Below are positions 52,277-64,000 of a DNA stretch of 64,000 bases, one piece after another. The position numbers and the translations under genes were made by a program. The stretch lies in assembly GCA_025462725.1 (NCBI GenBank), contig JAOAPE010000012.1, positions 1-64,000 of the forward strand. Direction: 5' to 3'. A model generated the notes under the pieces. That model saw only the letters and a program-made list of their open reading frames with translations. It did not search any database and had not been told where the DNA came from. The DNA is from Terriglobales bacterium (lineage in GTDB: Bacteria; Acidobacteriota; Terriglobia; Terriglobales; Acidobacteriaceae). The stretch's first letter is position 1. Every line of letters begins with the position of its first letter.

Positions 52277-52321
52277 TTATAAGCTACCCGCTTCCACAGG
52301 AACTTGGGATCCTGATTGCCT

Positions 52322-55300
52322 ATGAGTAGTCCATCAATTTCATTCATCTTGGTCTGTCCCACCTGTGGGAAGAAATATCAGGGCAATCCTGAGAAACCGA
52401 CCGCGCGATACAAGTGCCCCGCCGACCAAACCGAACTTGTGCGTCCACCCGCGCCGCCGGCTGCCGCTCCTTCGCAAGAATCGCTTGAGGATCAGACCAC
52501 ACAACGGATGACTCAAGAGACCGTCCCGCAAGAACCGCCACCGGACACCACGGAATCGCGCATCACGCAGCCAATCGCACCACCGAAGATGAGTTCTGGC
52601 CCAACGGATTCACCAGATGACGACCAGGCTACGCGAGTGATGTATTCGGATTCATCATCAAGGCTGATCACTAATGACCCACAGCCGGACGAAGACAAGA
52701 CTCGTGTCCTCGGCAGTCCCACATTTGCCCCGTCACATCCGTCCAAAGCAACGCTCGATTACTCAGCCACTGTCGCACACACGGTGACACCAACCATCCG
52801 CGATGAGCGTCGATCAGTGATCGCGATGATCCAGGGCGGCAGCAATACTTGCGCCGCGGCGTCGCTGCTCAAGGACAAATATGAGGTTGTTGGCAAACTC
52901 GGACAAGGCGGCGTAGGCGAGGTCCTGAAGGTTCTCGACCGCGATCTCAAACGTGAAGTCGCAATGAAGATGCTCCTCAAGCAAGAGCGGGGAGTCTCAG
53001 AGGACTCGCTCATCCGTTTCATCGAAGAAGCCCAAGCCACCGGGCAACTCGAGCATCCGAACATCGTTCCCGTGCACGACCTCGGCATCGATCCCGACGG
53101 CCGCGTCTATTTCACGTTGAAGTATGTGCAAGGCGTTCCGCTGAAAAAAGTCATCAAGGGACGCGCCGACAATTCCGCTCTCGAAGAGGGCGCGGGTTTT
53201 TATCGTGAGCGCTACACGCCGCTCCGCATGATCGAGATTCTCGTTTCCATGTGCCAGGCCGTCGCTTATGCGCACAGCAAGGGCATCATCCATCGCGACC
53301 TCAAGCCCGACAACGTGATGCTCGGCAAGTACGGCGAAGTGCTCGTCATGGACTGGGGCCTTGCGAAGGTCCTCGGCGCTAAGAAAACGAAAAAGCAAGA
53401 GAACGAGCGCGACACAGTCCGCATCTCGACGAGCCGCGCTGAAGACCAATCACAATCAACGATGGAAGGCTCCATAGCCGGGACTCCCGCATACATGTCG
53501 CCTGAACAGGCGGCGGGGAAGATCAGCGAACTCGATCAGCGGACTGACATCTACGCCCTCGGCGCAATCCTGTACGAAATTCTTTCCGGAATGCCGCCAT
53601 ATCACGGTGCCGGGGCACTGACTCTGGTGAAGCAAGTAGTGGATGGCCCACCGCCTCCGTTGGAGACCGGCTCACATGGATTCAATCCCGTGCCGCGCGA
53701 GTTAAAAGCGATTTGCGACCGCGCGATGGCGCGCAAGCCGCAGGACCGCTATGCCACAGCTTCGCTTCTTCGCGACGACCTGCAAGCCTATCTCGAAAAC
53801 CAGCCTGTCAGCGCAGCCCCGGATTCTCCGCTTCAACGCGCCGCCAAATGGGTGCGTCGCAATCGCCGACAAGTACAGACATCCGCCATCAGCGCTGCCG
53901 TCGTGCTCGCGGTAATTTTCGGCGGATGGTTCGCCTGGCGGCAATGGACAATCCATAGCCTTCTCAGCGATGCCACCGCGAAACTCGACTACGCACGAGG
54001 CAGTTACAAGACCGCGCTTTCATCCCAACGCCGCCCGGACAACGATCCCTATGCCGCGCAATTGAGCGCAAGCGCGCAGGGCGAGAATGCGCGAATTTTC
54101 CGCAACGCCGTGAACGCTGCAACGGATCCTCTGCGTCGTGTGCTCGACATCTCTCCGCAAAACTCGCGCGCACGATTGCTACTGGCTGAGAGCTACATGG
54201 AACTCTGGCGGTTGGCGATTGCAGAGGACAACATTGAACTCGCCCGCGCCACCCGCGCAGACGTTGAGAGAAATGCGCCTGAGCCAAATCCATTCGCCGC
54301 AGAGTTGGCAGGATTCGGCACGCTCGCACTCTCGTTCGATCCGCCTGACACCGAATCTTTTCTCTTCCGCTTTGAAACTCTTCGCGCGAAGGACGGCAGC
54401 GACAATGATCTTCCCGCGCGGCTGATTCCTGTTCCGTTCAATCCAAACACGAACAAAATTGATCAGGCCTTCATTGACGCTGAGCGCACGCGGATTGCAA
54501 ACGGCGTCGCACTGCCAGTCGAAAAACATTCCGTCTTCAATCTCCAACCAACCGCCGCAGGCGTCTTGGGCGAAGGCGCGGTGAACCTCGCCCAGCTCGC
54601 GCCCGGCAGCTATATGCTGCTGCTTCGCGCACCCGGACACGCCGAAGTCCGCGTCCCATTCCGTATGCCACGCGGTGGAAAAGTGAATCGCAAGATCGAA
54701 CTGCCCAAAGATGAAGAGATGCCGCCCGGATTTTTCTACATGGCTGGTGGGGAAGTCATTGTGGGCGGCACAACCGCAGGCGCGCCTGCTCCGCACACGA
54801 TCAATCTGCCACCATCATTCATCTATCACGATGAGATCAGCATGGGCGAGTACGCGCAGTTCCTCAAAGAACTCACTCGCACCGGACGCGCCGCTGAAGC
54901 CCGTCAGCGTCTGCCAAAAGATTTCGGCAAGAATCTAGCCGTGATGAGTCCAACTGGCGATCTGATGCCAACCGACCGCGGCGATCCTGCAGAGTTCGCG
55001 AAGTCACCCGTGCGCGGCGTCTCCTTCAATGATGCGATAGCTTACGTAGGCTGGCGAAGCAAAGTGGATGGCCTCGCCTATCGTCTTCCCAAAGATTGGG
55101 AGTGGGAAGGCGCCTGTCGCGGTGCCGATGGCCGCACATATTCATGGGGCAACCAGCCCGGCAAGGGCCTCGCCGTCGTCACGCAAGGATACGGCGACAG
55201 CGGTACCAACATGAGTTGGAAGTGGGAGAACTATAAGGACGAATCACCCTGGGGCATTCACAATCTCGCAGGCGGTGCGGCCGAATGGACAATGTCGAAA

Positions 55301-55522
55301 TACGATCCCGGCGCGAAGCCGAGTGATCCCGTTTACGGTCAGATGGCCATTCGCGGAAACGCATGGGCTCTTCCACCTACGGGCTTGGAGTGTGCGTTCC
55401 GCACTTCAGGGCAGCCGGATTATTTCCATCCCACCATCGGATTCCGTCTGGCGCTCGACTATCCAGTAAAGCGGATTGGCCCGGCATTGGAAGGCGCAGC
55501 CGCAATGGTGCATGGCCACTGA
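52322..55522 (+). CDS. Serine/threonine protein kinase fused to an FGE/sulfatase-modifying-factor domain
   Basis: The 1066-residue protein starts with a Cys-containing ribbon (C12-P-T-C15 and C32, the fourth ligand replaced by Asp). The kinase domain covers about 185-500: GKLGQGGVGEV, HRDLKPDNV with Asp326, and DWG (344) in place of DFG. A membrane helix lies near 521-541, so the rest is probably outside the cytoplasm. After a tetratricopeptide-like segment, an FGE-type domain (about 800-1060) has WRSKVDGLAYRLPKDWEWEGACRG and NLAGGAAEW; the paired catalytic Cys was not seen. Start chosen at ATG 52322. Confidence 0.9.
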   Translation: MSSPSISFILVCPTCGKKYQGNPEKPTARYKCPADQTELVRPPAPPAAAPSQESLEDQTTQRMTQETVPQEPPPDTTESRITQPIAPPKMSSGPTDSPDDDQATRVMYSDSSSRLITNDPQPDEDKTRVLGSPTFAPSHPSKATLDYSATVAHTVTPTIRDERRSVIAMIQGGSNTCAAASLLKDKYEVVGKLGQGGVGEVLKVLDRDLKREVAMKMLLKQERGVSEDSLIRFIEEAQATGQLEHPNIVPVHDLGIDPDGRVYFTLKYVQGVPLKKVIKGRADNSALEEGAGFYRERYTPLRMIEILVSMCQAVAYAHSKGIIHRDLKPDNVMLGKYGEVLVMDWGLAKVLGAKKTKKQENERDTVRISTSRAEDQSQSTMEGSIAGTPAYMSPEQAAGKISELDQRTDIYALGAILYEILSGMPPYHGAGALTLVKQVVDGPPPPLETGSHGFNPVPRELKAICDRAMARKPQDRYATASLLRDDLQAYLENQPVSAAPDSPLQRAAKWVRRNRRQVQTSAISAAVVLAVIFGGWFAWRQWTIHSLLSDATAKLDYARGSYKTALSSQRRPDNDPYAAQLSASAQGENARIFRNAVNAATDPLRRVLDISPQNSRARLLLAESYMELWRLAIAEDNIELARATRADVERNAPEPNPFAAELAGFGTLALSFDPPDTESFLFRFETLRAKDGSDNDLPARLIPVPFNPNTNKIDQAFIDAERTRIANGVALPVEKHSVFNLQPTAAGVLGEGAVNLAQLAPGSYMLLLRAPGHAEVRVPFRMPRGGKVNRKIELPKDEEMPPGFFYMAGGEVIVGGTTAGAPAPHTINLPPSFIYHDEISMGEYAQFLKELTRTGRAAEARQRLPKDFGKNLAVMSPTGDLMPTDRGDPAEFAKSPVRGVSFNDAIAYVGWRSKVDGLAYRLPKDWEWEGACRGADGRTYSWGNQPGKGLAVVTQGYGDSGTNMSWKWENYKDESPWGIHNLAGGAAEWTMSKYDPGAKPSDPVYGQMAIRGNAWALPPTGLECAFRTSGQPDYFHPTIGFRLALDYPVKRIGPALEGAAAMVHGH

Positions 55523-56029
55523 TTATTGTTTCGCTTGCCCGTCGTCAAGGTCGGGAAACGACTTGAAGGTGACTTCGCGCGAGACTGTCTTGATCTTCTT
55601 GTCCGGCAAGATCGTGTTTTTCTTCAGCGTGCCCTTCAGTACAAAGTATCCCTCTTCGGCGTGAGTCTTCACTGGCCCCCGATTCACTGTCCCGGAAAAT
55701 TCATAGAAGACCGCATGAACAGGCTTGGTTACAAAGGCGATGTCTTGCTTGTCTAGCGATCCTTTGCTGATGAAGTGGTCAAGAAAGACTCCCCGGTCGT
55801 TGTCATCATCGCCGTACCGTGAAATGAATCCGCTGACGGTTGCCGGCTTCATCGCTTCGGCAGGTTCAATGGTCACCTGGATGAATTCGCCGTCGCGCTC
55901 GAACGAGTACATGCCAGAGATGTCTTCCGCAGCTGTCGTGGTCGCCGCTTTCGGTGCAGCAGGCGCGCTTTGAGCAACGGCTGTTCCCATCGCAAGTCCC
56001 AGAATCACAACCCAAAGTCCTAATCTCAT
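55523..56029 (-). CDS. Secreted protein of unknown function
   Basis: The 168-residue protein has a signal peptide (residues 1-20, GLAMGTAVAQ). The mature part DISGMYSFERDGEFIQVTIEPAEAMKPATVSGFISRYGDDDNDRGVFLDHFISKG suggests a beta-rich domain. No known family recognised. Its stop lies immediately against the kinase gene stop on the other strand (55522/55523), an unusual zero-base convergent junction. Confidence 0.65.
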   Translation of the reverse strand: MRLGLWVVILGLAMGTAVAQSAPAAPKAATTTAAEDISGMYSFERDGEFIQVTIEPAEAMKPATVSGFISRYGDDDNDRGVFLDHFISKGSLDKQDIAFVTKPVHAVFYEFSGTVNRGPVKTHAEEGYFVLKGTLKKNTILPDKKIKTVSREVTFKSFPDLDDGQAKQ

Positions 56030-56066
56030 CTAGCTCCCAAATGCCCTAAAACGGCTGGATTCGCGC

Positions 56067-56094
56067 GTTTGAGCGGCGTTTACCAAGTTATAAT
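56067..56094 (+). promoter_or_regulatory. Candidate promoter of the TonB-like gene
   Basis: TATAAT at 56089-56094 is a perfect -10 element, 27 bp before the ATG at 56121. The -35 region (GTTTGA near 56067) is weak. The transcript leader would be about 20 nt. Confidence 0.45.
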
Positions 56095-56120
56095 CACGTC
56101 AGTTCATCTTCTCACGAACT

Positions 56121-57803
56121 ATGCAGCAGGCTCACAGGATTACTCAGCTCGAGATGTTTGAACAGAGGGCGCGTACTCCTGCTTTGCTGGTCGAATGGCA
56201 GCCGTGGTGGCCGCAGTTCCTGAACAACATTGCGGATATCTTCCGCCCGCCTCCACCCGAACTTCAATTGATGTCAAAACCGGGAGAAGTTTCGCCGGAT
56301 TATTTCGTCGAACGTCCTCTACCGTGGAAAGATTTCGGACACTCTGGCTTCCTTCACGCCGCCGCCATCCTCTTCATCTTCACCACCGGACGGTTCTGGT
56401 TAACGCCTCCTCAGACGGTTCTTGAGGATCCCTACCAGCATACAACTCTTAGTTACTACAAAGTGGACGATCTCCTGCCCGCGCTCAAATCAGCACCCGC
56501 GCCGCGAAAACAAATCGCGCAGAAAGGCCAACCGGAGTTCGCCAAGCAGCAGATCATCTCCGTCCCGGCAGCGGCGGACAACAGCACTCAGACCATCATC
56601 AATCCGCCGCACCCGGAGATATTGCATCGCGATGTGCCGCTGCCCAATATAGTTGTTTCAACCGCGACACCAGCAGTACCAACACTGGCGCTGACCAGAT
56701 CGCAGATTACATTTCCAGCGCTCGCAGTCACGCCAGTTCAGCCCGCGCCGAATGTCCGTAACGAAGCCCGCAGGATGCTCGCGGTCGCCGCGCCCGAAGT
56801 TGTTCAACCTGCGTTCACAGCGGAACAGATGAAACCGACTGCGAAGGTTCCGGACGTTGCGCTTGCCGAACCCGCGCCTCCAGTCGAAGCACCCAAACTT
56901 CCTACAAGGGAAGCCATGCCAACCCAGAACGCTCTCGCCCAACAAGAAGTTGTGCCACCACCGCCACCATCACAAAACCTCGGGGACCAGCGCAAACCCG
57001 CAGGACAACTGCTCGCGCTCAGCGTTCGTCCATCTCCGCCCGAAGCAGAGATAAAGGTTCCTGATGCCAGCCGCTCCGGAATCTTCGCCGCAACTCCAGA
57101 TGGAAAGATCGGCGCGCCAGGAACTCCTGACATCGCCGCTTCGAATTCTGATTCCGACAAGCCTGCGGCAACGGGCGCACCCTCGAACTCCGCAACGGGA
57201 ATCTCCATCGCTGGACCGCGCACCACACCCGGTACCGCAACCGCAGTGGTCTCCGGCCCTGCAGCGTCTTCCTCGCCGAAACCTCCGTCCACCTCGCAAG
57301 CGAATCGGACAATCGCCGCCGCGCATCCGCCGCCATCATTTGCAGACATCGCCCGCCGTGAGACGTCGCGATACACGCCGCCCGAAAATCGCAAACCTGA
57401 AGACCAAGTCTTCGGCAGCAAAAGGATTTACTCCATGCAGCTCAACATGCCGAACCTCACCTCAGCAGGCGGCAGTTGGATCATCCGCTTCGCAGAGTTG
57501 AATCAGGATTTTCATGCCGGCGAACTCTCAACCCCGGTGGCCACCAACAAGGTCGATCCCGCCTATCCCGCTGAACTGATGCGCGAGCACGTTGAGGGAA
57601 CCGTGATCCTCTACGCGGTCATTCACGCCGACGGCACCGTCGGGGAAGTCCGCGTGCTTCAAGGATTTCACGACAAGTTGGATGAGAATGCGCGAGTAGC
57701 GCTCACGCGATGGCATTTCCGTCCGGCGACGAAGAATGGTTCGCCTGTGGATTTAGAAGCGGTAGTACAGATTCCGTTTAAGACCCGACGAACGGGGTTC
57801 TGA
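56121..57803 (+). CDS. TonB-like protein with long Pro-rich linker
   Basis: The 560-residue protein has one transmembrane helix near residues 74-92 (FLHAAAILFIFTTGRFW), then about 350 residues rich in Pro, Ala, Glu and Ser that would span the periplasm, and a C-terminal TonB domain (about 470-560: VDPAYPAELMREHVEGTVILYAVIHADGTVGEVRVLQGFHDKLDENARVALTRWHFRPA). Only the typical partners ExbB/ExbD are missing from the window. The protein ends 3 bp before the convergent gene's stop. It likely energises an outer-membrane receptor. Confidence 0.85.
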   Translation: MQQAHRITQLEMFEQRARTPALLVEWQPWWPQFLNNIADIFRPPPPELQLMSKPGEVSPDYFVERPLPWKDFGHSGFLHAAAILFIFTTGRFWLTPPQTVLEDPYQHTTLSYYKVDDLLPALKSAPAPRKQIAQKGQPEFAKQQIISVPAAADNSTQTIINPPHPEILHRDVPLPNIVVSTATPAVPTLALTRSQITFPALAVTPVQPAPNVRNEARRMLAVAAPEVVQPAFTAEQMKPTAKVPDVALAEPAPPVEAPKLPTREAMPTQNALAQQEVVPPPPPSQNLGDQRKPAGQLLALSVRPSPPEAEIKVPDASRSGIFAATPDGKIGAPGTPDIAASNSDSDKPAATGAPSNSATGISIAGPRTTPGTATAVVSGPAASSSPKPPSTSQANRTIAAAHPPPSFADIARRETSRYTPPENRKPEDQVFGSKRIYSMQLNMPNLTSAGGSWIIRFAELNQDFHAGELSTPVATNKVDPAYPAELMREHVEGTVILYAVIHADGTVGEVRVLQGFHDKLDENARVALTRWHFRPATKNGSPVDLEAVVQIPFKTRRTGF

Positions 57804-57806
57804 TTT

Positions 57807-60101
57807 CTACGCCGTGAATTCGCTTTCCATCTGCTTGTAAAGCGATTCATTCACGCAGACTTCGTAGTACTTCTTCTCCGTCCAGCGCTTCAGCGAGAAA
57901 TCTTTCAGGTCAACATACGCGATGGTTCCTTCGCGGATGATCATCTTGTGGAAGATGCCTTGTCCCACGGGAACCATGCCCGTGTACAGCCGGACCTTCT
58001 CATTCGACCAGATCATCGGCATCTCGATCTCATGCAACTTCAGTGACACTTCCTTTTGCAATTTCTGGAATGCGAGTCCGTTGATGTGTATGCCGCCAAT
58101 GTTGTAACGCACGAGGAACTCATCTGGAATCCCGCCCGTGTCCGAGTCCTCTACCGTCTGGAAGCTGAAGACATTGAACAGGTCAGTCTTCACATTCGCC
58201 ATGTATTTACGCACACCCTTGCTGCATCCCGACAGGCGGTCGCTTTCATTGAGCGCCTTCGAGATCATGATGCGGTGCGTGCCGTCCATCAGGTACATCG
58301 GTGCGGATTCCTGGAAGCAGATTCCCAATCCGAGTTCGAGCGTCGGTAGCCCCGCCGCTTTCGATTGCTCGTTGTATGCGCGGACGATCTGCACCATCTC
58401 CTTCGCCAGCATGCAGGTCTTGCCCACTCCAAAGCCCTGCTCGCCTTCGCGTTCAAAAAGCGCAAGGATCAACGCATCGCCTTCGATAAAGACTTTGGTC
58501 GCGTTGTACTTTGGCAACAGCTTATTGACCGGATCAAAAAAGTTGAGGCTGAAGTACGACGCCGGATTCAATCCGCGCTCGTACAGTGTCTTGGTGAGCG
58601 TGGTGCTGTCGCGGATGTCGGCTTTCAGAATGATGTGATCAATGACGCTCGCGTCCGACGGCTTCTGTTCTTCCGTAAGCAGAAATTCGTACAGCGTGTT
58701 GTTGATCGCCGAAAGCTCGCGCAACTTCTCATTCGTCACGCCGATGACGTTGATGCCATCCATCGCCGCGAGTACAGCCTCATATCTGCGCAGATCGCGA
58801 TGGAAGCGGATGAAATCACTCACGTATCGTCCCGCAATCTTTGCGCGGTCGTTGCCTTTTAGTGCTTCCAATTTTTTGACTGCGGAATTCAGACCATCAG
58901 GAGAAATCTTTCCGTGCTCGTCCAGCAGCGTTTCCACCCGCTGACGTTCAGTCTTCGAGATCAGCGAATTCTTAAGTTGCTGCGGGTTGATCGGCGGCGA
59001 GTATTGCGCCAGCAGCGGAACCACCTCATACGAAGCCACAACGTGGTCCATCAATTTCTCTTTTTCGAGGAAGTCCACCCAGCCGTTTAACAGTGCGCGC
59101 TGCGCTTTGCCCTTCGGAGTGTTCTCGTCAGGCGTGCCGCCGGCCATCAACTCCTGCGCATTCTCCGGGACATTCAGCATCGCATCCAGCGCCTTGTCCT
59201 CTTCGGCTCCCGCAGGAACCACACTCAGCGACTTGAGATACGCGATAGCAAATTCCAACATCGTCTGAAAGCGATCAGGATCGCGATCGTAATTGCCGAG
59301 CATTACATAGTGCTCAGCATTGAGGTAATCGTCTTTCCCATCATCGATGAACAGCAGGCGGTTCAAAAACAGATCATAGGACGCGCTTGCCGCATCGCCG
59401 AACATCGAGCGCCGCATCTTTACGAGAGTCTCTTTCTCAATCTCGCGGATAGTCACGAAGATGTCCTGTCCGGCTTTTCTTAGGACAGTCTTCTTCGTCA
59501 CTTGCAATTTGGCGAAACGCTCGCGCATCTCGATCCCTTTTTGCGGATTCGGATTGCGCGGGCCTTCATACGTTTTCAGCTTTACCCGACAGCGTTCCAG
59601 CAGTTGCGCGAACTGCGCCAGCAGTTCCGCGCGAAGGAATTTCACCACTGCTAGACGCGTAAGCAGATCAAGGCTGATGTTGTTGTCAGTCTTCGCCCGG
59701 TTCAGCGCCACAATGTGCAGGTCCGCCATCAATTTCTTGAAGTCGGCGGGTTCAGCGGGCTTTGACGGTGCTGCTGCAGTAGCTACTACGGTGGCCGGTT
59801 TCGGCGAGCCGATAAACCCGCCCATAGTGCGTCCCGACTGGATCGCGGGAGTCGCAGCCGCCATCGCCCGAGCTAGCGAATCCTCGGCGACGAAATCTTC
59901 CACGCCGCCATATTTCGCCAGCAGCTTTGCAATGTGTTGTCGCGTGACGTCGGCAAACTTTGGGCTGAGATAAACGTCCGTGCGGACGTTGTCCACGCCG
60001 GTGAGCAGGCCTTCAAGAATAATCTCGGGCGAGTACTGCGAGAGTTGCAACTGCTTGGCGTAGTCAGCCAAGTTTCCGCGTTGTAGAAAGGAAAAGGCCA
60101 T
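57807..60101 (-). CDS. Large uncharacterised protein with divergent class III cyclase-like domain
   Basis: The 764-residue product has no signal peptide. I do not recognise residues 1-480. Residues about 490-650 resemble a class III nucleotide cyclase: ILKADIRDSTTLTKTL with Asp495 and Asp498, then TKVFIEGDALILALFE with Lys536 and the EGD motif at 540-542, then LGLGICFQ and RIMISKALNESDRL in place of the usual substrate-contact segments. The metal-binding Asp pair appears kept, the rest is far from typical cyclases, so activity is uncertain. The C-terminal 110 residues are beta-rich and unassigned. Confidence 0.7.
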   Translation of the reverse strand: MAFSFLQRGNLADYAKQLQLSQYSPEIILEGLLTGVDNVRTDVYLSPKFADVTRQHIAKLLAKYGGVEDFVAEDSLARAMAAATPAIQSGRTMGGFIGSPKPATVVATAAAPSKPAEPADFKKLMADLHIVALNRAKTDNNISLDLLTRLAVVKFLRAELLAQFAQLLERCRVKLKTYEGPRNPNPQKGIEMRERFAKLQVTKKTVLRKAGQDIFVTIREIEKETLVKMRRSMFGDAASASYDLFLNRLLFIDDGKDDYLNAEHYVMLGNYDRDPDRFQTMLEFAIAYLKSLSVVPAGAEEDKALDAMLNVPENAQELMAGGTPDENTPKGKAQRALLNGWVDFLEKEKLMDHVVASYEVVPLLAQYSPPINPQQLKNSLISKTERQRVETLLDEHGKISPDGLNSAVKKLEALKGNDRAKIAGRYVSDFIRFHRDLRRYEAVLAAMDGINVIGVTNEKLRELSAINNTLYEFLLTEEQKPSDASVIDHIILKADIRDSTTLTKTLYERGLNPASYFSLNFFDPVNKLLPKYNATKVFIEGDALILALFEREGEQGFGVGKTCMLAKEMVQIVRAYNEQSKAAGLPTLELGLGICFQESAPMYLMDGTHRIMISKALNESDRLSGCSKGVRKYMANVKTDLFNVFSFQTVEDSDTGGIPDEFLVRYNIGGIHINGLAFQKLQKEVSLKLHEIEMPMIWSNEKVRLYTGMVPVGQGIFHKMIIREGTIAYVDLKDFSLKRWTEKKYYEVCVNESLYKQMESEFTA

Positions 60102-60273
60102 GAGAGTTGTGAGCGCCTGACCGTATCAGGCGTTCACTCAGGTACTCTGGAAGGCCGAATATATCACGCGAGTCCGCCGATTCCATCAATAGAAATGCGG
60201 GGGCGGCATGCCTTTAGTAACTAAAACGGGGCCCAGTTGTCGGCCCCATTTCTGCTCCAAATTTGCTGAAAGA
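60102..60273. other. Intergenic region between the cyclase-like gene and the M28 peptidase
   Basis: I see no gene or strong terminator in this 172-bp stretch. It should hold the promoter of the 764-residue gene, but no convincing -35/-10 pair was found on the minus strand. Confidence 0.5.
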
Positions 60274-61962
60274 TTACTTTCCTGCACTCGCTTTGCGTGC
60301 CGCCTCGAATTCATCTCCAGGCTTCCACGCGGGTGAGCTAGGCAGGTTTGCAGCCTTCCACCCCAGCGCCAATCCGAAGCGCGCCATCTTTGCATTGCCG
60401 GTGAAGATCATCTCCGGCTTGTATTCGTCTGACGGCTGGTGATAACGATGGTCGGTGTAATCCGCCGCCTGCTGCACTCCCCACTCTGCCGGATGCCCAA
60501 CAAACTTCACCCCTTCATTCACCGAGAACGACGGCACTCCCACACGCGCCATGCTGAAATGGTCTGACCGATAGTAGTGTCCTGCCTCTGGTCGCGCATC
60601 CGGCTTGATCTCAAGTCCGAACGCTTTTGCGGTCGCCTGCACGACCGGGAAAAATGATGTCCGCTCCGCGCCGACGACCTCAATCTCTTCCGGAATACCG
60701 ATCGGCGGGATGTCGTCGTAATTCAAATTCAGCACGATTTTCCCGGCAGGAATCGGCGGATGCTTGCCCAGATATTCCGATCCGAGCAACCCTTGCTCCT
60801 CGGCGGTGACGGCGGCAAAAATCATCGAGCGCTTTGGTTTTTGCGATGCAGCTGACATTACCCGTGCCATTTCTAGCAACATTCCGCAACCGGTGGCATT
60901 GTCCGCTGCGCCGTTATAGATATTGTCTCCCGGTTGATCAGGACGAATCCCCAAGTGGTCATAATGCGCGGAGTATATAACCGCTTGCGAACTCAGCTTC
61001 GGATCCGACCCCGGCAGCATGGCAATTACATTGTTCGATTGCATCGGACGCACCTTGCTCACGAGAGTCGCCTTCAGCTTTGCGTTCATCGGCACCGGAC
61101 GAAAATCACGCGACTGTGCATCCTTCATCATCTGGTCAATGTTCATGCCGCTGGCGCTTGCCAGCTGCCGCGCAACATCGAGTTGTATCCACGCCGCCGC
61201 ATTCAATCTTGGATGGTCTTCGCGGATAAACGACTTCTCGCCAGAGTTCGAATTGCGGACCACTTCCCAGCCGTAACTGGCCATATCGGTTTTGTGAATG
61301 AGGATCACTCCGACTGCGCCCCTGCGCGCCGCTTGCTCGTATTTATACGTCCAGCGTCCGTAATAGGTGAGCGCCTTGCCCTTGAAGAATGTTTCGTCAG
61401 TGGACGGTGGCTCATTCACCAGCATCAGCAGCACTTTGCCGCGGACATCCACATTCTTGTAATCGTTCCACTTGTATTCTGGAGCCTCAATGCCATATCC
61501 CACGAAGACGATTGGCGCATCAATGTCCGCTTTCTCCGTGAGGTTCTGGTTGTAAGCAACAAATTCGTCGAGGAATTTCAGCTTCATCGGCTCGCCCTTT
61601 GCGGGCTCAATGGTGAAATTGCTCGAGTCGGCAACCGTAGTCACGCCAACGAGCGGAACCTTCTGCATGTAGGTTGCGTTCTCGCCCATTGGCTTGAGGC
61701 CATACAACGCGAATTGCGTGGCGATGTATTCTGCGGCGACATCTCCGCCTCGCTGTCCCGTGCCGCGTCCCTCAAGCAGATCGCTCGACAAGAACTTGAC
61801 GTGCTGCCGAATGTGCTCGGGATCAACAGCGCGAAGCGCGGCCTGTGCTGCCGGTGGAAGCGATGCATCAGTTTCTTTCGCGCTGGCGGATTTAATTTTT
61901 GTTTGAGAGAAAGAGAAAGTCGTAGCCAGAAGAACTGCAATCAGGATCGTTGCCTTGCGCAT
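60274..61962 (-). CDS. M28 family zinc peptidase with PA domain
   Basis: The 562-residue protein has a signal peptide (residues 1-20). A PA-like insert lies around residues 140-220 (APIVFVGYGIEAPEYKWNDYKNVDVRGKVLLMLVN). M28 zinc ligands are visible: SAHYDHLG, NGAADNATGCG, TAEEQGLLGSEYL and the late RSDHFSMARVGVPSF. It is likely a secreted or periplasmic aminopeptidase. The 172-bp gap downstream (60102-60273) holds no gene. Start at ATG 61962. Confidence 0.9.
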   Translation of the reverse strand: MRKATILIAVLLATTFSFSQTKIKSASAKETDASLPPAAQAALRAVDPEHIRQHVKFLSSDLLEGRGTGQRGGDVAAEYIATQFALYGLKPMGENATYMQKVPLVGVTTVADSSNFTIEPAKGEPMKLKFLDEFVAYNQNLTEKADIDAPIVFVGYGIEAPEYKWNDYKNVDVRGKVLLMLVNEPPSTDETFFKGKALTYYGRWTYKYEQAARRGAVGVILIHKTDMASYGWEVVRNSNSGEKSFIREDHPRLNAAAWIQLDVARQLASASGMNIDQMMKDAQSRDFRPVPMNAKLKATLVSKVRPMQSNNVIAMLPGSDPKLSSQAVIYSAHYDHLGIRPDQPGDNIYNGAADNATGCGMLLEMARVMSAASQKPKRSMIFAAVTAEEQGLLGSEYLGKHPPIPAGKIVLNLNYDDIPPIGIPEEIEVVGAERTSFFPVVQATAKAFGLEIKPDARPEAGHYYRSDHFSMARVGVPSFSVNEGVKFVGHPAEWGVQQAADYTDHRYHQPSDEYKPEMIFTGNAKMARFGLALGWKAANLPSSPAWKPGDEFEAARKASAGK

Positions 61963-62027
61963 TCATGGTCTCCACTGCAGTAGTTTATTTTTGGATTACC
62001 TGCGACCGCAGGCTAATTCTTTGAGCC

Positions 62028-62525
62028 TCAACCCGCTTTGAAGTCGAGGACATCTTCGCCCTTGTTGAATATCTGCGCTTCGGGCACTCCTGCCGCTTGC
62101 GCTACTACTTTGTTCAGCGCCTCAATCTCGTTCTTGACCCATCCCACGGAAGAGAATCCGATTTTCTTGTTCGGCTCTACAATGAATATCGACGGCACAT
62201 TGGTCAATCCAAACGCATTCGATGCTGGATACTTCTTCATCTCGTCCAGCACGACAGGGAATGTCACGCCGAATTTCTTGGTGAACTCTGCCGTGTCTTC
62301 TTTCGTGTCCTGCGACACGCCGATGACCCGCACTTTGTCCTTTGGATAAGCCTTGTAGATGCGCTCAAGGAAGGGGAACGCGTACTGGCACGTTGGACAG
62401 CCCACCTTGAAAAATGCCGCCACCACCGGCGTGGAACTCTCGGCACCGTCCAATGAAAGCTGCCGTCCATCCAGTGTGCTGAGTGAAATGTCAGGCGCGG
62501 TCGCGCCCGGAGCGAGTGCCGGCAT
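62028..62525 (-). CDS. TlpA-like thioredoxin-fold protein
   Basis: The 165-residue protein has a thioredoxin fold with a CPTC redox pair (Cys43-Pro-Thr-Cys46) inside AAFFKVGCPTCQYAFPFLERIYKAY and the cis-Pro region NVPSIFIVEP. The resemblance is to the AhpC/TSA-TlpA group. No signal peptide is present, so it probably works in the cytoplasm. It is 65 bp upstream of the M28 peptidase and 21 bp after mutY in the same direction, so the three may be one transcript. Confidence 0.85.
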   Translation of the reverse strand: MPALAPGATAPDISLSTLDGRQLSLDGAESSTPVVAAFFKVGCPTCQYAFPFLERIYKAYPKDKVRVIGVSQDTKEDTAEFTKKFGVTFPVVLDEMKKYPASNAFGLTNVPSIFIVEPNKKIGFSSVGWVKNEIEALNKVVAQAAGVPEAQIFNKGEDVLDFKAG

Positions 62526-62546
62526 CTTCGTCTCTCCAGTTGGTCT

Positions 62547-63581
62547 TCAAGCTTTTCGATTCAACAAAACGCCCATGCGACGCAGGATTTTGCGCGTCAA
62601 CCCGGTAAGAGGCAGCTTCTCCGCCCGGCTCAATTCTACTCTTTGAGAGCCATGCTGCGGCTTCCCGCTCCAGACGTGGATATCGTAATCCGTCGTCGTG
62701 ATCGCGTGCCGCACTTTAAGCGTCGGAGCCCTCGTCGGAAATCGCGCGATGCTCGGCAATTCCCACATGCCCGCCATCAGCGTCGAATCGCTGGGGCGCT
62801 GCACCAGATGGACACCGCTGGAATCCAGAGACAACCGATATCCCAACTTCGCCGTCCGCCGCGCACTGCGCTTGACGCGGATTTTCGCTCCACGGGTCGC
62901 GCACCACTTCTTCACCGGACACGCGCCACACTCTGGCGTGATCGGCAGGCAAACCGTCGCTCCCAATTCCATCATTGCCTGATTGAAGTCGCCGGGCCGA
63001 TCCGGCGAAATCAGCTCCTGCGCGCCCGCCCAAAAATCCAGCGGATCATCTTCCTTGCGGCCGCTCAACCGAAGCAGTACCCGCTCTACGTTCCCGTCCA
63101 CCACTGCCGTAGGTTCCCCGAACGCGATACTCGCGATTGCTGCCGCCGTGTAGCGACCTATCCCCGGCAACTCCCGCAACTCCGCTGAACTCCTCGGAAT
63201 CCTATTGCTTGCACTCACCAACTGTTTAGCCGCAGCATGCAGCATCCGCGCCCGACGGTAGTATCCCAACCCGCTCCATTGCGCGAGCACGTCTTGCTCG
63301 TCCGCCTCCGCCAAATCGCGCAGTGTGGGAAACGCAAGCAGGAATCGCTTGTAGTACTCCAGGACGGCTGCCACGCGGGTCTGCTGCAGCATGATCTCTG
63401 AGACCCAAATGTGATATGGATTGCGCGTCCGCCGCCATGGTAGATCACGCTTCGATGCGTCATACCAGCGCAACAAACGGGACTGAAATACCTTCGGCCG
63501 GACTACGCCAGGCAGAGAACGTTGCACCACAGGTGAATTAGCAGGCTTCAAGGAAGATGATTCTAAGTGTCGGCTCTCCAA
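62547..63581 (-). CDS. mutY: A/G-specific adenine glycosylase MutY
   Basis: MutY removes adenine mispaired with 8-oxoguanine. The 344-residue protein has the catalytic Glu62 in LPWRRTRNPYHIWVSEIMLQQT, the helix-hairpin-helix LPGIGRYTAAAIASIAF, the catalytic Asp162 in AVVDGNVERV, and a [4Fe-4S] cluster C211-x6-C218-x2-C221-x5-C227. A NUDIX-like C-terminal domain follows but is short. The TTG start at 63581 gives about 30 extra N-terminal residues; later GTG codons are possible. Confidence 0.92.
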   Translation of the reverse strand: MESRHLESSSLKPANSPVVQRSLPGVVRPKVFQSRLLRWYDASKRDLPWRRTRNPYHIWVSEIMLQQTRVAAVLEYYKRFLLAFPTLRDLAEADEQDVLAQWSGLGYYRRARMLHAAAKQLVSASNRIPRSSAELRELPGIGRYTAAAIASIAFGEPTAVVDGNVERVLLRLSGRKEDDPLDFWAGAQELISPDRPGDFNQAMMELGATVCLPITPECGACPVKKWCATRGAKIRVKRSARRTAKLGYRLSLDSSGVHLVQRPSDSTLMAGMWELPSIARFPTRAPTLKVRHAITTTDYDIHVWSGKPQHGSQRVELSRAEKLPLTGLTRKILRRMGVLLNRKA

Positions 63582-63657
63582 TTCACAATAAGCGCGTGAC
63601 TAAAGGACAACAGCGCCCTCACTCGCAGCATCTCTAATCAAGTTCGGAGCAGAATAC

Positions 63658-64000
63658 TTGATCCCCTACCAATTCTTTCGCGCGGCAGCGTTGCTAACCA
63701 CTGCCACTTTCTTCATCATTTCTGGTTGCGGAGGCGGCGGAAGCAGCACTCCCACGCCGACCAGCGTAGCAACGCCAACGCCAACGCCAACTCCTACTCC
63801 CACTCCGACTCCCACCGGCGGAGGCACCGGTGGCGGCCCCACTCCGGCAGGAACCGCAACCGTGGTCTCCGTAGGCGCAGGACAGACTGCCAGCGGAACC
63901 GATATCAGCGTTTCGGCGCCAGCCTCCTCAACTCCGCCTAACGCCGAATTGCTCGGCGTGACTAATGTAGGGACAGGTGGCAGCGCCAGTAATAGCGGCT
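63658..64000 (+). CDS. Thr-Pro-rich lipoprotein, C-terminus beyond the window
   Basis: The frame from TTG 63658, with GGAG 8 nt upstream, is open to the right edge. It reads a signal peptide with lipobox IISGC (Cys24), then a Gly/Ser stretch, about 20 residues of Thr-Pro repeat encoded by ACTCCN and ACGCCA units (63757-63811), a Gly-rich turn, and TATVVSVGAGQTASGTDISV. This resembles cell-surface lipoproteins with a Thr-Pro linker leading to an Ig-like or beta-solenoid domain. The rest is unknown. Confidence 0.75.
   Translation, partial: MIPYQFFRAAALLTTATFFIISGCGGGGSSTPTPTSVATPTPTPTPTPTPTPTGGGTGGGPTPAGTATVVSVGAGQTASGTDISVSAPASSTPPNAELLGVTNVGTGGSASNSG

Follow-up and report, generated by a model that had tools for sequence, protein, structure and literature searches.

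The window, a 64,000-nucleotide stretch of contig JAOAPE010000012.1 from a Terriglobales bacterium, encodes on its minus strand a 764-residue protein whose C-terminal part is predicted to carry the class III cyclase homology domain fold. We consider it somewhat probable that the protein represents a new subfamily of class III cyclases that is catalytically competent, recognizes the base in an altered way and is controlled by a helical domain not described before. Class III cyclases rank with the best-studied enzymes of signalling, yet the scanned members of this Acidobacteria family escape the curated Pfam model. Should the family prove active, it would add to the known base-recognition solutions and sensor domains, and it would point to an unstudied signalling pathway in common soil bacteria. 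It may make an unusual signal molecule upon some cue. The family did not appear among the papers listed from the openly licensed literature on Pycsar, class III specificity, and cyclases or cyclic nucleotides of Acidobacteria and Koribacter, which does not imply its absence from print.

The gene and its conserved motifs

The gene and its features are as follows. D1 and D2 denote the first and second metal Asp, D495 and D542.

57807..60101, minus strand: whole open reading frame, 764 amino acids, ATG start, stop included
58662..60101, minus strand: residues 1–480, helical N-terminal region, presumed sensor or regulatory domain
59964..59999, minus strand: residues 35–46, conserved N-terminal motif GVDNxRxDVxLS, from 112 homologues compared
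59760..59882, minus strand: residues 74–114, low-confidence stretch, probably a flexible linker
57837..58661, minus strand: residues 481–755, predicted class III cyclase homology domain with insertions, from fold and profile match
58602..58625, minus strand: residues 493–500, KADIRDST, with the putative first metal Asp D495; K493 replaces the usual Phe at D1-2
58476..58496, minus strand: residues 536–542, KVFIEGD, with the putative second metal Asp D542, from 112 homologues
58236..58271, minus strand: residues 611–622, I611 and the putative transition-state pair N618/R622, from 112 homologues

The open reading frame picked out in the earlier, sequence-only reading is real and is conserved among homologues. 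Both cyclase motifs which that reading named are present, ADIRDST at residues 494–500 and K-x3-EGD at residues 536–542, with conservation far beyond chance: A494, D495, R497, S499, E540, G541 and D542 are identical in 112/112 distinct homologues, and K536 is found in 106 of the 112. The lysine of the second motif is not the substrate-specifying one, though, as it lies six residues before D542 and not four, where F538 is found instead.

Fold and homology of the C-terminal domain

Structure prediction followed by a fold search had been set beforehand as the test of the cyclase assignment, and it identified residues 481–755 as a class III cyclase fold. The full-length AlphaFold2 model, built on a 35-sequence alignment, has a mean pLDDT of 85.1 and a pTM of 0.60, the latter leaving the relative placement of the two halves unsure. 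In Foldseek, class III cyclases rank first, with E values of 1.2e-6 to 5.8e-5 among the 50 matches listed, and 106 matches have E <= 0.001. The 50 matches listed by VIA show Z of 14.5–16.0 and rmsd of 2.6–3.7 over 154–185 residues, mostly within residues 481–755. The C-terminal part, which had been described as matching nothing, thus belongs to the cyclase domain, since the structural matches mostly reach about residues 750–755. Only about 180 of the 275 domain residues are matched structurally, indicating that the domain carries insertions. Judging from the predicted strands, these insertions probably lie mainly after N618/R622, in the C-terminal half of the domain.

Profile comparisons agree with the fold. 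A profile of the family domain, searched against the open reading frames of 56 loci, found three ordinary class III cyclases at E values of 2e-10, 2e-9 and 4e-9, with the D, GD and N-x3-R elements in register in the alignments; the next-best match was a cyclase of the protein's own genome, at E 0.0055. That genome has four ordinary cyclases, one of which the domain profile reached weakly (E 7.6e-4) while the other three were missed. In hhalign, the family matched 48 ordinary cyclase domains with 97% probability and E 9e-11.

The window protein had no Pfam match at E <= 1. When 35 members were scanned, no Pfam match was better than E 0.0012, and the ten families found at E <= 1 include neither Guanylate_cyc (PF00211) nor DUF2652. 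The four PF00211 matches in the protein's own genome all lie elsewhere than in this gene. The best phmmer match in PDB was the cyclase 2w01 (E 0.64), collinear with residues 492–596, and a full-length profile reached PDB cyclases only at E 0.25. Several other matches were judged to be chance: an M20 peptidase (E 0.0084) and a phospholipid methyltransferase in NCBIfam, phrog_19641 in PHROGs (E 0.16), tyrosine kinase Fes in PDB, and Pfam TraI_2, Hda_lid and TerB in 6, 3 and 2 of the 35 members, respectively.

A tree was built from 12 family, five PycC-like and 48 ordinary cyclase domains. The family stands on its own branch (support 100/99), about 3.3 changes per column long, apart from the 48 ordinary domains.

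Active site and base pocket

D495, D542, N618 and R622 are unchanged in 112/112 distinct homologues, and the two metal-Asp positions hold Asp in all 51 other cyclase loci aligned. These 51 loci comprise 50 ordinary cyclases and one PycC-like protein (L143). Two of the 50 ordinary rows are one gene, and the L150 row is distorted at its end. The set leans toward canonical cyclases because 30 of the 51 loci came from the best Pfam-search matches.

The pocket of the ordinary loci has F at D1-2, K at D2-4 and I, L or M at D2-2, each in 50/50, and T, D or S seven residues before the Asn, again in 50/50. At the corresponding positions the family has K493, F538 and E540, each in 112/112, and I611 in 108/112, with V in the other four. 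Comparison of the two sets shows that F and K are swapped and that the other two positions are altered. In mammalian adenylyl cyclase, the adenine-binding site is lined by these same four positions. A base-reading role for D1-2, D2-4 and D2-2 finds support in the pocket residues given in the excerpted text of PMC11224242, namely F60 and K104 with D62 and D106 in AnPycC, and F100, R142 and Q144 with D102 and D146 in EaPycC. A pocket that is conserved yet altered argues for a base being read in an altered way.

Could the protein be a conventional adenylyl or guanylyl cyclase whose pocket is rearranged but still recognizes ATP or GTP, so that its sequence is new and its chemistry is not? Every catalytic residue is kept, as such an enzyme would have it, and by profile the domain resembles ordinary cyclases more closely than it does the PycC-like set. 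According to the excerpted text of PMC4215837, adenylyl cyclases recognize adenine with a Lys and acidic residue pair, which K493 and E540 reproduce at other positions, and the second substrate residue varies widely among guanylyl cyclases. Nevertheless, the adenylyl cyclase signature, Lys at D2-4 with Asp or Thr seven before the Asn, is absent from the family, which has Phe at the former position and Ile or Val at the latter, each in 112/112. The Glu that guanylyl cyclases carry at the first substrate position (PMC4215837, excerpted text) is also absent, F538 occupying that position in all 112 homologues. We therefore regard an ordinary cyclase as fairly unlikely, and the family's preferred substrate probably sits in the pocket differently than substrates do in the known adenylyl and guanylyl cyclases. 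A Lys donor together with a Glu acceptor could suit several bases, so the base is left unassigned.

Less likely still is a pseudo-cyclase, which would bind nucleotide and metals as an allosteric sensor and would not turn the nucleotide over. The extreme divergence seen in the length of the family branch, the lack of any Guanylate_cyc match in the 35 members and the wholly changed base pocket are what such a protein might display. The invariant pocket could serve non-catalytic nucleotide binding, and a K493–E540 salt bridge might close the base site. There is little reason, however, for a mere sensor to require D495, D542, N618 and R622 together, all of which stay fixed in the 112 homologues; the 35 homologues aligned in full are 44–84% identical to the query. 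The retention of the four putative catalytic residues in every homologue makes an active enzyme more likely than a degenerate sensor. The proposal made from the sequence at the outset, that the protein belongs to a new cyclase subfamily or is a nucleotide-sensing derivative of one, is supported by the predicted class III fold and the long separate branch.

The N-terminal half

Residues 1–484 were modelled alone from 79 sequences. The model (pLDDT 91.6, pTM 0.88) is compact and mainly helical, with a few short strands. The stretch around residues 74–114 is of low confidence in the models, with pLDDT below 50 in the full-length one. G35, D37, N38, R40, D42, V43, L45 and S46 each occur in at least 98% of the 112 homologues, and the GVDNxRxDVxLS motif which they form at residues 35–46 may be a functional site.

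The N-terminal 480 or so residues had been said to resemble nothing recognizable, and the searches agree: Pfam, NCBIfam, PHROGs, PADLOC and the PDB sequences gave nothing convincing, the last having no match at E <= 1. Foldseek of the N-terminal model against PDB found nothing at E <= 0.001, the list being led by designed helical proteins and 14-3-3 (E 0.32 or higher), and against BFVD again nothing at E <= 0.001 (best E 0.041). In VIA the best Z was 6.0, below the typical best Z of helical models with no clear relative. These results are read as no match found for the predicted model and not as proof of a new fold, and a family missing from these result lists is not thereby ruled out. As no membrane segment was seen by eye, the N-terminal half would be a cytosolic sensor or a partner-binding domain.

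Distribution and chromosomal setting

With the protein as query, matches were found in 97 of 298 genomes of the order, the protein's own included, and in 41 of 70 genera. All 97 carriers fall in the same family-level group as the window. A phylum-wide draw searched with both protein and profile gave matches in 6/396 genomes (own included), all of that same group. A scan of genome contigs found 310 pattern stretches, 287 of which encode relatives of the protein; among the 80 of these 287 that were listed, the titles all name Acidobacteria or groups and genera within them. The family has thus been found, so far, in one group of these soil bacteria. Roughly two in three of the genomes searched in the order lacked a match, indicating that the gene is dispensable in the clade.

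Nearly all carriers in the order are single-copy, split alignments aside. Assembly PLJN01 has two divergent family loci, L063 and L129, and genome G558 has pieces of two copies; the second copy in each reflects duplication or contamination. The extra matches in G415, G432 and G477, at 28–30% identity, come from ordinary cyclases that carry GAF-GAF-PAS or CHASE2 domains.

The phage and plasmid collections searched gave no match to the protein, and the 2 and 78 pattern stretches found in viral contigs gave no confirmed relative of the family. A mobile or viral origin was set aside on these two grounds.

Two neighbours adjoin the gene directly.

60274..61962, minus strand: M28 peptidase, upstream neighbour (PF04389, E 1.1e-41)
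56121..57803, plus strand: convergent downstream neighbour with a TonB C-terminal domain (PF03544, E 3e-16)

The relatives of the window's own neighbours were sought at 90 distinct homologous loci. The TonB-domain gene adjoins convergently in 45/79 testable loci, and the M28 gene adjoins upstream on the same strand in 31/80. Of the 58 homologous loci with enough flank, 37 have mutY upstream on the same strand. The recurrent neighbours among those sought are mutY, a peroxiredoxin, M28, TonB and a 168-residue protein. This recurrent mutY/peroxiredoxin/M28/TonB setting points to a chromosomal gene that is mainly vertically inherited. Among these relatives of the window's own neighbours there is no cyclic-nucleotide receptor, effector or phosphodiesterase. 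When ten genomes lacking the gene were searched for the M28 neighbour, six had it; the six M28-bearing loci have no family open reading frame, and tblastn with 35 homologues found no match there at E <= 0.01. At one locus where the cyclase gene is absent (L168:7372-8682, minus strand), an MFS transporter gene fills the slot between M28 and TonB.

Other genes of the window were also noted. The 168-residue protein (55523-56029, minus strand) has a signal peptide by eye and no Pfam match; relatives occur in 43/97 homologous loci, often just past the TonB-domain gene. Next to it, 52316-55522 (plus strand) encodes a 1068-residue protein with a Ser/Thr kinase domain (PF00069) and a C-terminal FGE-sulfatase domain (PF03781). 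At 63658-63999 (plus strand) is the start of a protein with a lipoprotein-like signal by eye followed by Thr-Pro repeats, cut by the end of the window. No RNA family was found in 55000-64000, and a promoter and terminator scan found no promoter-like site and two terminator-like ones, in line with what shuffled sequence gives.

Proposed mode of action

What the analysis shows is the predicted fold, the homology, the residue conservation and the distribution in the genomes searched; dimerisation, catalysis, substrate and regulation are inferred for a catalytically competent subfamily with altered base recognition. Two C-terminal domains (residues 481–755) would form a head-to-tail dimer, in which D495 and D542 would coordinate two metal ions and N618 and R622 would stabilise the transition state as the NTP closes to a 3',5'-cyclic monophosphate. 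The base would be read by a rebuilt pocket of K493, F538, E540 and I611 instead of F, K, I and D/T. The helical domain of residues 1–480 would gate the enzyme, acting inside the cell as a sensor or as a module for binding a partner.

The protein's own genome encodes nine cNMP-binding domains besides the four ordinary cyclases. Candidate receptors for a product therefore exist, none of them linked to this gene by the present results. A more specific proposal, which we hold to be doubtful, is a non-defence, house-keeping cyclase with an undescribed helical sensor and a non-canonical product, such as cUMP, cCMP or an unusual purine cNMP, whose pocket is independent of those of adenylyl cyclases, guanylyl cyclases and PycC.

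Comparison with known cyclases

PycC proteins share with the family a cyclase core with two metal Asp (PMC11224242, excerpted text). Six PycC-like loci, with five distinct sequences, were found in relatives. Their proteins carry Y two residues before D1, D two before D2 and R directly after D2, and Lys stands where the transition-state Arg would be. L143, L203, L204, L205 and L206 encode single-domain cyclases of 233–245 amino acids with a Y / D-G-D-R pocket set, and from these residues they look like PycC proteins in Acidobacteria. The Y/D/R set would fit the clade B signature Y50/D94/R97 in the excerpted text of PMC11224242, which also gives F60/K104/F109 for clade D and F100/R142/Q144 for clade E. 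None of these signatures occurs in the family, where the matching positions hold K493, F538, E540, A543 and I545; for clade B we infer the position match. The six PycC-like loci and the family are alike in an acidic residue at D2-2 and an aliphatic one seven before the Asn. The family differs in having Lys for Tyr/Phe at D1-2 and Ala for Arg after D2, in keeping the transition-state Arg where the PycC-like loci have Lys, and in adding a 480-residue N-terminal domain; the profile similarity is weak.

The PADLOC PycC model PDLC02368 matches 19 of the 35 members weakly (best E 2.8e-4). Its matches to ordinary cyclases are much stronger (3e-13 to 5e-14), and no PADLOC model matches the window protein at E <= 1. 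In hhalign, the family and the five PycC-like proteins gave 4% probability and E 0.011. In the tree a split supported at 95/93 separates the ordinary cyclases from the family and the PycC-like group together; both branches exceed 3 changes, and the grouping may be long-branch attraction. No PycC kinship is claimed, because both branches are very long and the profiles favour ordinary cyclases (97% versus 4%, the latter from a set of only five sequences). A Pycsar-type pyrimidine cyclase for phage defence is thus very improbable despite the tree grouping, the weak model matches and the shared pocket residues, given the preference of the PycC model for ordinary cyclases, the differing pocket signatures, the low hhalign probability, the lack of phage, plasmid or confirmed viral-contig relatives, and the recurrent chromosomal setting with no effector among the neighbours tested; membership in Pycsar was accordingly rejected.

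DUF2652 proteins resemble the family in being bacterial and uncharacterised, with a distant relationship to class III cyclases (PMC4886424, excerpted text). According to the same text they are single-domain proteins of about 250 amino acids from Actinobacteria, Bacteroidetes and Proteobacteria, whereas the family protein has 764 residues and an N-terminal domain. The mycobacterial DUF2652 set has Lys-Glu, and Ile for the Asn, in that text; the family keeps the Asn.

Compared with the solved cyclases CyaC (1wc0-1wc5), Cya2 (2w01) and CyaB (3r5g), and with the GAF/PAS- or CHASE2-linked cyclases of relatives, the family is distinguished by the lack of a Guanylate_cyc match, the insertions in its domain and an unrelated N-terminal region. 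Its pocket is K/F/E/I, not the F/K/I/T (or D, S) of the Acidobacteria cyclases compared. It shares with the solved and linked cyclases the predicted fold, the metal Asp residues, the Asn-Arg pair and the strand around G593.
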